Of a stretch of DNA of 32,955 nt, positions 18,630-21,646 are shown in pieces. Made by a program: the position numbers and the translations under genes. The notes under the pieces are model-generated. The model made no database searches, had not been told where the DNA came from, and was given only the letters and a program-made list of their open reading frames with translations. Origin of the DNA: Sulfurovum sp. Lineage in GTDB: Bacteria > Campylobacterota > Campylobacteria > Campylobacterales > Sulfurovaceae. Numbering within the stretch: the first letter of the stretch is position 1; each line of letters starts with the position of its first letter. The DNA lies in the NCBI GenBank assembly GCA_011391015.1, contig JAABRH010000012.1, positions 1-32,955 of the forward strand, written 5' to 3'.

Positions 18630-19145
18630 ATGGTCATTACAAATGAAAACTGTGTAGTAGGCATAGAATACGAACTAAAAGAAGCAGGTACAACAGAGGT
18701 TGTAGATAGCAACAAAGGTGGTGCGCCATTGGAGTTTATTATCGGGAAAGGTCAAATCATTCCTGGTCTTGAAAAAGCATTGGTTGGTATGAGTAAAGGT
18801 GAAAGCGGAGACATCATGGTCAAGGCAGCAGATGCGTATGGTGATGTAAATCCTGAAGCGATGCAAATACTTCCTATCGATCAGTTTGCAGGTGTTGATC
18901 TTGTTGAGGGTATGACACTGTATGGTCAAGGTGAAGATGGGCAAACGGTACAGGTGATTGTAAAATCATTTGATGACAATGAAGTGAATGTAGATTTTAA
19001 TCACCCAATGGCGGGTAAAGACCTTATGTTTTCTATCACGGTTCTGAGTGCCAGAGAAGCGACTGCAGATGAGATCTCTTCTGGTGTCGTTGGCGGACCT
19101 GCAACATCTGGCGGTAGCTGCGGTACAGGTTGTGGCTGCCACTAA
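18630..19145 (+). CDS. slyD: FKBP-type prolyl isomerase SlyD
   Basis: The 171-aa cytoplasmic chaperone/prolyl isomerase has an FKBP half (VVGIEYELKEAG, PLEFIIGKGQIIPGLEKAL) interrupted at about 70-125 by the insert-in-flap domain that gives SlyD its chaperone activity, then the closing strand NHPMAGKDLMFSITVL. The C-terminal tail SGGSCGTGCGCH is a short Cys/His-rich metal-binding segment, much shorter than in E. coli SlyD. Tails of this type bind nickel and support [NiFe]-hydrogenase maturation, a pathway common in Campylobacterota; the link here is inference. A strong terminator closes the gene. Confidence 0.93.
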   Translation: MVITNENCVVGIEYELKEAGTTEVVDSNKGGAPLEFIIGKGQIIPGLEKALVGMSKGESGDIMVKAADAYGDVNPEAMQILPIDQFAGVDLVEGMTLYGQGEDGQTVQVIVKSFDDNEVNVDFNHPMAGKDLMFSITVLSAREATADEISSGVVGGPATSGGSCGTGCGCH

Positions 19146-19160
19146 TTCCTGAACTTGTAT

Positions 19161-19191
19161 GTGTCGGTTTCTTGGAAACCGACACTTTTTT
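19161..19191 (+). terminator. Strong intrinsic terminator after slyD
   Basis: A perfect 11-bp stem, GTGTCGGTTTC (19161-19171) and GAAACCGACAC (19175-19185), closes on the 3-nt loop TTG and is followed directly by six T residues (19186-19191). It is the only textbook rho-independent terminator I see in the window, and it isolates the next gene from slyD transcription. Confidence 0.92.
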
Positions 19192-19267: not shown

Positions 19268-19276
19268 TGCTATGAT
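19268..19276 (+). promoter_or_regulatory. Candidate extended -10 promoter of the kinase-like gene
   Basis: TGCTATGAT at 19268-19276 fits an extended -10 and lies 27 bp before the 19304 start. A TATACT at 19282-19287 is an alternative but is very close to the ribosome site GAAGG at 19293-19297. With the terminator just upstream, this gene should have its own promoter. Confidence 0.4.
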
Positions 19277-19303
19277 AATTTTATACTTATGTGAAGGTGT
19301 GTC

Positions 19304-20614
19304 ATGAATCAGACAGAACAGTCTTTTGATATCAATACAATATTAACCACGCTTTTTGCTACACTTGATGGTATAAGACGGGAAAAAAATATTGAACTCA
19401 TTTATGATATGCAGGCAACGATACCCAGAGAATTAAGAGGGGATGCCAAGGGTTTGTTGGACATACTAAATACGCTGCTCACTTTTGTTTTGCAGCAGAC
19501 AGAAAAAAGGGAAATCGTACTTTCTTTAGGTGCGCCAGAAGATTTCCTTTATGAAGAATTTATGTCATTTTCTCTACATGATACCGGTATTGCCAAAGAT
19601 AAAATCTTATCATTTTTTGAGACGGATTTTGCGCATAATCTGTCGATGCTTGGCGGAAAGATCATCCAAAATACAGTAGAGAAGATACAGATAGAGATAC
19701 CTTTTAAAATCAATGAACTGGGGTATAGGCGCCACTACAGACTGCCACATGTCGGGATGTTGCACAAAAAAGTTTTGGTGATTTGCGAGAGTAAGCAGGT
19801 AGAGCGTACACTAGCGCATATGCTCCGCTATTTTTTATATGAGGTTGATGAAGGGCTTGAAGTATATAGAGACAAAGGCAGTAATTTGGCTAAGTATGAC
19901 ATCGCGATCATAGATCAAAGTCTCAGCACCGATGCGGTGAATGATATCGTGATTGAAGTGCAAAAAAAAGTGCCTTTAAAATGTGTCATTCTTTTGGATT
20001 CTCATTTGGCACAACCCTCATCGATGTCCTGTGTGAGTACACACCTCATTAAACCTGTCACACAGGAGAGTATTTATACGTTAATTTTGTCACTCTATCA
20101 GGAGCAAATTGATCAAACTGCTATCAAATCAAATGAGACCTCACATATAGTAGATATAGAAAAACACCTCCAAACCGAAAAAGAAAATATAGTTCAAACT
20201 ATTACAATACCGAACCCCCTTGGTTTTACTTCAGGGTTTCAAAAGAGTGTGCAGCCCAAAAAAGAGCTTGTGCTGGCTATTTTAAATAAAGAAGAAGGGA
20301 TAAAATACACACAAAAAATGGGCTTAGACTACAAAAATGAGCTCAAAGTCTTTTTGGATATTTTTGACAAGTCGGATTTGTATTTTAGACAAATTGTCAA
20401 TGAAAAAGCGATAAACAAGATCAAACAGTTTTGTATTGATCTGGAGAAACATGCTAAAATCATCGGTGCAGAGAGTATGTTGAAGTTTGCCGAAACGGTG
20501 AGTCTGATTTTTGTCTATAACAAACTCGATATGCTTGTGATCTACCCCGGTAAATTTCATCTTGAACTAAAAAAACTGGTTGAAGAGATCAAAAAAGAAC
20601 TGCATATAAAATAA
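19304..20614 (+). CDS. Degenerate hybrid-sensor-kinase-like protein (pseudo-HATPase, receiver-like, Hpt-like)
   Basis: I do not recognise this 436-aa protein as a named family. Residues 1-130 align by eye with the HATPase part of hybrid kinases (FDINTIL, then IPRELRGDAKGLLDILNTLL, LHDTGIA, MLGGKI), yet the N-box Asn is Phe61 and the ATP-lid/G2 segment is missing. Residues 153-265 resemble a receiver: KVLVICES, YDIAIIDQS with Asp204 at the phospho-acceptor position, and LIKPV with Lys250; the paired acidic residues read Cys-Glu. A linker follows, then a helical Hpt-like end at about 330-435 (HAKIIGAESMLKFAE) with no His at the phospho-site. No signal peptide or membrane span is seen. An in-frame TGA at 19292-19294 just before the start shows that the missing dimerisation domain is not simply an unrecognised 5' extension. 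Confidence 0.7.
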   Translation: MNQTEQSFDINTILTTLFATLDGIRREKNIELIYDMQATIPRELRGDAKGLLDILNTLLTFVLQQTEKREIVLSLGAPEDFLYEEFMSFSLHDTGIAKDKILSFFETDFAHNLSMLGGKIIQNTVEKIQIEIPFKINELGYRRHYRLPHVGMLHKKVLVICESKQVERTLAHMLRYFLYEVDEGLEVYRDKGSNLAKYDIAIIDQSLSTDAVNDIVIEVQKKVPLKCVILLDSHLAQPSSMSCVSTHLIKPVTQESIYTLILSLYQEQIDQTAIKSNETSHIVDIEKHLQTEKENIVQTITIPNPLGFTSGFQKSVQPKKELVLAILNKEEGIKYTQKMGLDYKNELKVFLDIFDKSDLYFRQIVNEKAINKIKQFCIDLEKHAKIIGAESMLKFAETVSLIFVYNKLDMLVIYPGKFHLELKKLVEEIKKELHIK

Positions 20615-20707: not shown

Positions 20708-21646
20708 ATGTCAATCAAGTGTGCATTTATATTTCCAGGTCAGGGCTCTCAGGCCACTGGTATGGGAAAAGATTTTTTTGAAAATTCAACAATTGCAAAA
20801 GAGATGTTTGCACAGGCAAAAGAGAGAACGGGGATTGATTTTGAAACACTTTTGTTTACTGAAAACGAAGAGCTAGGCAAAACAGAGTTCACACAGCCAG
20901 CCATTTTGCTTGTTAGTAGCATTGCAAGCAGAGTGTTTGTTGAAAAAACAGGTATCACGCCGGTACTCACTTTAGGACATTCTCTGGGTGAGTTTTCTGC
21001 GCTTGTAGCGAGTGATGCATTGGATGCGATAGATGCGGTGGAGTTGGTCAATCTGAGAGGTCGCCTGATGGCTGATGCCTGCTCTAAACAAGAGGTTGGT
21101 ATGTTAGTGTGTCTTGGGCTTGATGATGCGATTGTTGAAGATACTTGCCAAAGTCAAAGAGAGAGCGGCAAGAGCGTGTGGGCGGTAAACTACAACAGTG
21201 ACGGTCAGATAGTCATCGCAGGGATAAAAAAAGATTTGGAAGCACTGGTTGATGTACTCAAAGAGGCAAAAGCAAAAAGAGCGATGCTTCTGAATATGTC
21301 GGTTGCAAGCCATTGTCCTCTTTTAGATAGTGCTACTGCACCTCTGGCTGTAAAACTAAAAGAGGTTATCAAAGATAATTTTATCGCTCCTGTGATTTCA
21401 AATGTAACCGCTAAACCGTACAGCAGCAAGGCCGAAGCTTTAGAGCTGCTTCCTAAACAGCTTGTGATGCCTGTGCTTTATAAGCAGTCTATTAAAAATA
21501 TAGATGATGAGGTGGACTGTTACATAGAGTTTGGACACGGCAAAGTATTAGCCGGACTCAATAAGTCAAGTGCAACAAAACCAACATTTAATGTGTTTGA
21601 TATGGCAAGCCTTGAGGCAACCATCCAAGCACTTAAAGAGCTATGA
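20708..21646 (+). CDS. fabD: Malonyl-CoA:ACP transacylase
   Basis: The 312-aa enzyme loads malonyl groups from CoA onto acyl carrier protein for fatty-acid synthesis. The N-terminal FPGQGSQATGMG at 9-20 and the nucleophile elbow GHSLGE at 90-95 (Ser92) are diagnostic, and the VASHCPLLDSA segment near 200 carries the catalytic His. LGHGKVL-type residues near the C terminus (FGHGKVLAGL) also match. Length is normal. The gene is separate from other fatty-acid genes here, and its stop overlaps the mtnN start region. Confidence 0.97.
   Translation: MSIKCAFIFPGQGSQATGMGKDFFENSTIAKEMFAQAKERTGIDFETLLFTENEELGKTEFTQPAILLVSSIASRVFVEKTGITPVLTLGHSLGEFSALVASDALDAIDAVELVNLRGRLMADACSKQEVGMLVCLGLDDAIVEDTCQSQRESGKSVWAVNYNSDGQIVIAGIKKDLEALVDVLKEAKAKRAMLLNMSVASHCPLLDSATAPLAVKLKEVIKDNFIAPVISNVTAKPYSSKAEALELLPKQLVMPVLYKQSIKNIDDEVDCYIEFGHGKVLAGLNKSSATKPTFNVFDMASLEATIQALKEL

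Follow-up and report, generated by a model that had tools for sequence, protein, structure and literature searches.

The 32,955-nucleotide stretch of DNA analyzed here (hereafter the window: contig JAABRH010000012.1 of the Sulfurovum sp. assembly GCA_011391015.1, positions 1-32,955; genome label G000) encodes a soluble protein, denoted X436, that descends from a GacS/BarA-like tripartite hybrid kinase (CA-pseudoREC1-REC2-Hpt) and retains a HATPase-like, a receiver-like, and an Hpt-like fold, with the catalytic and phospho-accepting sites lost in all orthologs. Comparison of coding sequences indicates that the family evolves under purifying selection. We give roughly even chances to the explanation that this pseudo-phosphorelay protein functions as a phosphorylation-independent adaptor or scaffold.

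X436 begins inside the CA domain and has no N-terminal membrane part. The initial annotation had described an intact frame of 436 codons, with a stop just upstream of a start that leaves out the dimerization (DHp) domain, and with a ribosome site of its own, all of which is borne out: the position of the start codon and a Shine-Dalgarno-like sequence are kept across the X436 orthologs, and the DHp region is present in none. The strong terminator that it had placed ahead of the gene is likewise there, ending the slyD transcript, but no sigma-70 promoter upstream of X436 passed a consensus scan of the plus strand, so that a promoter of its own is plausible at most. The conserved neighbors, slyD and fabD, suggest no signaling partner for X436.

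Table 1 Features of X436 and its flanks; positions are those of the window.
Feature	Position	Strand	Details and basis
slyD-like FKBP peptidyl-prolyl isomerase	18630..19145	+	conserved neighbor 5' of X436
Intrinsic terminator behind slyD	19161..19185	+	11-bp stem and T-run
Possible extended -10 (TGCTATGAT) upstream of X436	19268..19276	+	by eye only
In-frame stop TGA	19292..19294	+	three codons 5' of the X436 ATG
ORF X436	19304..20614	+	436 aa, 436 codons, ATG start; CA-psREC-Hpt-like pseudo-hybrid-kinase; family alignments
Pseudo-HATPase (CA), aa 6-137	19319..19714	+	ATP lid/G2 absent; fold, alignment, NCBIfam match
Phe61 at the N-box Asn position	19484..19486	+	F in 29/29 orthologs
Linker aa 140-148 (GYRRHYRLP)	19721..19747	+	among the most conserved stretches; YRLP common to long relatives
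Pseudo-receiver, aa 152-268	19757..20107	+	
Asp204, phospho-acceptor position of the receiver	19913..19915	+	D14/E12/S3 among 29 orthologs
Variable low-confidence linker, aa 271-322	20114..20269	+	at the place of REC2 in relatives
Hpt-like helical bundle, aa 324-436	20273..20611	+	Ile378 = phospho-His position, Glu381 = H+3, Lys382 = H+4
fabD	20708..21646	+	conserved flank 3' of X436

Near full-length homologs of X436 were detected in at least 32 of the 78 searched genomes of the genus, mostly at 42-52% identity, and 29 reading frames are complete (40-52% identity to the window protein). Beyond the genus, in 150 genomes compared at the family level and 299 at the order level, there is a single full-length copy (G082), the weaker matches being mostly longer hybrid-kinase-like proteins. 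Wherever the contig permits, the gene lies in the slyD-fabD interval, with proA usually present on the 5' side and mtn and ttcA on the 3' side. Literature searches on Sulfurovum two-component systems retrieved no title or abstract that describes X436. The slyD-fabD interval is variable: in many genomes, with or without X436, it harbors a gene for a restriction-endonuclease-like protein of about 165 aa (Mrr_cat; for example, L033:3934-4425, L165, and L164), and in other genomes, an ARMT1-like or a cupin/JmjC gene. A functional link between X436 and the Mrr-like gene was rejected because each is often present without the other. Two-domain forms of 280 aa (CA-psREC, no Hpt; L032:2797-3657, L033:4709-5536, L040, and L041) variously accompany X436, replace it, or are encoded elsewhere in the genome.

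The amino-terminal domain is related to the catalytic domains of histidine kinases. The NCBIfam BarA profile matches aa 8-97 of X436 (E 1.2e-6), and the best sequence match in the PDB is RetS, found both with phmmer (aa 5-77, E 0.005) and with a profile built on the X436 family (aa 5-75); Pfam yielded no match for the X436 protein at E-values up to 10 and no consistent domain among 21 family members. The alignment with the canonical hybrid kinase L048 agrees with the initial annotation that Phe61 takes the place of the N-box Asn (INLMNNAVKFT in L048 vs NTLLTFVLQQT in X436) and that the ATP-lid/G2 segment is missing, the F-box/ATP-lid/G2 region being absent from every X436 row displayed in that alignment. 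X436 accordingly combines two of the defining properties of pseudo-histidine kinases, which are derivatives of histidine kinases devoid of one or more of their functions, namely, homology to histidine kinases, evident from its resemblance in both fold and sequence to CA domains and hybrid kinases, and loss of the phospho-His and/or ATP-binding residues, in this case the DHp domain, the N-box Asn in every ortholog, and the lid with G2.

In the AlphaFold model of the full-length protein (21 sequences in the input, pLDDT 77.9), an alpha/beta HATPase-like domain is followed by a (beta-alpha)5 receiver-like domain, a disordered linker (aa 271-322), and a helical C-terminus. The top Foldseek match of the model is full-length ShkA (6qrj; E 1e-12 over 291 columns), followed by the catalytic (CA) domains of ETR1, RetS, and PhoQ. 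Among the five regions compared, mean entropy is the lowest in the linker between the first two domains (aa 138-151). The search of the PDB with the family profile matched response regulators to aa 154-267 (3-5e-4), which, together with the order of the elements in the model, identifies a receiver fold that is devoid of the catalytic pentad, that is, a pseudo-receiver: apart from the variation at the phospho-acceptor position, the beta1 acid position is mostly K/E/Q among the 29 orthologs, and the beta5 Lys (28/29) is the sole pentad residue kept. Conservation in X436 is also strong over the segment that corresponds to beta5-alpha5, LIKPVTQES (aa 248-256).

Folded alone, the C-terminal 113 aa attain pLDDT 94.4, and the best ten Foldseek matches of this bundle are all Hpt domains, with TM-scores up to 0.83 and weak E-values (best 0.069); a profile search of the bundle against PDB sequences retrieved no Hpt, so that the four-helix fold of this family (PF01627) is recovered by structure only. 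The phospho-His and the small H+4 residue are lacking, and the Pfam scan is negative. The His position is Ile in 28 of the 29 orthologs and hydrophobic in nearly all, H+3 is Glu in 29/29, and H+4 is Lys in 23, Arg in 5, and Gln in one. In Hpt domains, H+3 and H+4 are normally Lys and Gly. The H+4 residue of natural Hpt domains is G in 87% and S in 10%; the figures for some 10,000 Hpt sequences include 3 cases of Arg and one of Gln at this position, and Lys does not figure in the list (PMC6341664). Structure (for the HATPase and Hpt) and profile search (for the receiver) thus recover the folds in the order that the initial annotation had proposed, with the correction that the receiver retained is the degenerate first one (pseudo-REC1), the phospho-accepting REC2 of the parent architecture being absent; the pentad of the receiver and the His of the Hpt are lost as well, which goes beyond what had been claimed.

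The ancestry of X436 can be traced through a chain of homology that leads to relatives of about 720 aa, in which Pfam recognizes HATPase_c and Response_reg, and from these to L048, with HisKA, HATPase, REC, and Hpt (the latter slightly below the cut-off). The closest longer relative in the same genome is a 723-aa membrane protein (L031; G000 contig 23, 55127-57295), which, like its homologs present in most genus genomes, has the order TM - degenerate DHp - CA - pseudoREC1 - REC2 - Hpt. Residue counts over 30 such proteins (homologs L129-L158) show a replaced DHp His in all (by E in 28), Y/H at the N-box Asn position in 28, and V/I/L/M instead of the Hpt His in all 30, with H+3/H+4 still K/R and G in 29, whereas the REC2 active-site residues are all kept in 30/30. 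In the phylogenetic tree, X436 and the 280-aa forms are split from all long proteins by a 100/100 branch. The simplest reading is that X436 originated once, from a long ancestor that would already have been kinase-dead, after which the DHp half and REC2 would have been lost. The Glu at H+3 and K/R/Q at H+4 of X436, as opposed to K/R-G in the REC2-bearing relatives, suggest that the canonical docking face of the Hpt was given up when its receiver disappeared. Three hybrid kinases from another family of the order (L081-L083) lack the DHp His (VGEKIRQP), with the N-box, G1, G2, REC2, and Hpt His intact.

With all catalytic sites gone, X436 could be a non-functional relic undergoing neutral decay, a very improbable alternative in our estimate. 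In the comparison with the sister genome G006, dN/dS of X436 is 0.18 over aa 1-223 and 0.21 over aa 221-436, against 0.04-0.09 for slyD, fabD, and mtn, and other close pairs give 0.05-0.30. Values so far from one in all comparable pairs rule out local decay in all lineages, as does, for a lesion of the window copy alone, the fact that the orthologs share the lesions and none has intact motifs; 29 complete frames at a conserved locus with a conserved start argue in the same direction. The conclusion of the initial annotation that the gene is selected rather than decaying therefore stands for the family, but calls for a caveat in the clade of the window, where several observations fit the relic. 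The gene is cleanly absent from the close relative G031 (93% in FabD), with slyD adjoining fabD; the frame is broken in G006 (L043, G006:C11) by an A run one base shorter (A8 to A7); and the window copy has a long terminal branch. The G006 frameshift is possibly an assembly error because proA is also broken on that contig. A frameshift near aa 38 is present in G012 as well. Given the absence from G031 and the frameshifted copy in G006, X436 is an accessory gene, and its patchy presence in the genus implies a role that is not essential. Within the gene, aa 41-130 (window 19424-19693) differ from G006 with dS of 1.07 and dN of 0.28, both above the rest, which may reflect recombination.

Among the functional alternatives, the one we take most seriously, while still considering it unlikely, is a ligand-sensing adaptor, in which a small molecule (for example, c-di-GMP) would be bound by the pseudo-receiver, or else by the CA pocket without its lid, and the rest of the protein would pass the resulting state to a partner, in the manner of the REC1 pseudo-receiver of Caulobacter ShkA. 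ShkA, the best structural match, has the same succession of CA and pseudo-receiver, c-di-GMP docks on its REC1 beta5-alpha5, and pseudo-receivers have been proposed to form a class of input domains (PMC7010744); the conservation of LIKPVTQES in X436 fits, but conserved beta5-alpha5 segments are also seen in ordinary receivers. We find it distinctly improbable that X436 is a decoy, whose His-less bundle would dock on receivers of response regulators or hybrid kinases and block phosphotransfer. The Hpt fold is kept, the dead kinase DivL can, according to PMC4211667, read a response regulator via its docking face, and in yeast Ypd1, large or charged residues at H+4 nearly abolish phosphotransfer and affect receiver binding only modestly (PMC6341664), so that docking by X436 could survive; against this, the invariant H+3 reversal to Glu and the H+4 residues that hardly occur in natural Hpt domains (PMC6341664) are peculiar to X436, the 720-aa relatives with a live REC2 having kept K/R and G. 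Slightly more doubtful still is a dedicated subunit of the membrane pseudokinase L031: this protein shares pseudoCA-pseudoREC1-Hpt with X436 and is widespread in the genus, but occurs without X436 in many genomes, shows no genetic linkage to it, and is ruled out as an obligate partner by two genomes, G004 (100% complete) and G023 (99%), that have X436 without a close 720-aa protein.

We therefore return to the phosphorylation-independent adaptor or scaffold. After the loss of the membrane/DHp part and REC2 from the parent, X436 is predicted to have no site for productive ATP binding and none that could take up phosphate or hand it on, which leaves binding as the remaining output. The three folds would then offer surfaces to which other two-component proteins, the likely partners, could bind, and specificity would reside in the conserved linker with its YRLP motif, in the pseudo-receiver, and in the Hpt-like bundle as reshaped. 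What is bound may also be a small molecule rather than a protein. More tentatively, at somewhat under even confidence, we propose that X436 represents an entirely phosphorylation-independent protein, selected genus-wide, in which the CA, receiver, and Hpt modules are all kept as folds, every phospho-site is removed, and H+3 has changed from K to E and H+4 from G to K/R with the loss of the receiver partner.

A single bacterial family contains a graded series, from a canonical hybrid kinase through a membrane pseudokinase with one live receiver to a soluble dead protein and the 280-aa forms. Such a series is natural material for learning which surfaces persist once catalysis is gone. The genus-wide pseudo-hybrid kinases of about 720 aa are arguably as interesting as X436 itself. 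With the GacS/BarA tripartite hybrid kinases, such as L048, X436 shares the CA - pseudoREC1 - ... - Hpt order, the YRLP linker, and the BarA match, but it lacks the sensor, membrane part, DHp, and REC2, and with the HisKA phospho-His, HATPase motifs, REC2 phospho-Asp, and Hpt His all lost, it is a derivative rather than a member of this group. The 720-aa proteins have a common ancestry with X436 and have lost the DHp His, N-box Asn, and Hpt His, but keep the TM segment, a degenerate DHp, G1/G2, an intact REC2, and the Hpt K/R-G, none of which is found in X436. DivL and RetS, histidine kinases turned to other or inhibitory roles, keep the DHp dimerization region, which X436 lacks entirely. Both are, like X436, regulators derived from histidine kinases (PMC4211667), and RetS is the closest in sequence to aa 5-77 within the PDB. 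RcsD has a dead HATPase, a receiver-like ABL, and an Hpt in the same order as X436, but it is membrane-bound and its Hpt His842 accepts phosphate (PMC7418988), whereas X436 is soluble, with a dead Hpt. ShkA of Caulobacter likewise has a CA domain with a pseudo-receiver behind it, but it is an active kinase that possesses REC2, and its pseudo-receiver binds c-di-GMP (PMC7010744). The match of X436 to ShkA is one of fold; a c-di-GMP site like that of ShkA (Y338 on beta5-alpha5, with the DDR linker motif) would be hypothetical in X436, from which the REC1-REC2 linker and REC2 are absent. Pseudo-receivers and pseudo-histidine kinases are known, with mechanisms that are poorly understood, and the His is missing from only about 0.9% of Hpt or HisKA domains (PMC12632262), which makes a protein that is conserved although every site has gone a good test case. 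Pseudo-receivers and pseudo-histidine kinases, like dead modules of the RcsD kind, have precedents in earlier work (PMC12632262, PMC7418988, PMC4211667); what sets X436 apart is that a conserved soluble protein of three folds has lost its sites completely, together with the graded series within one family.
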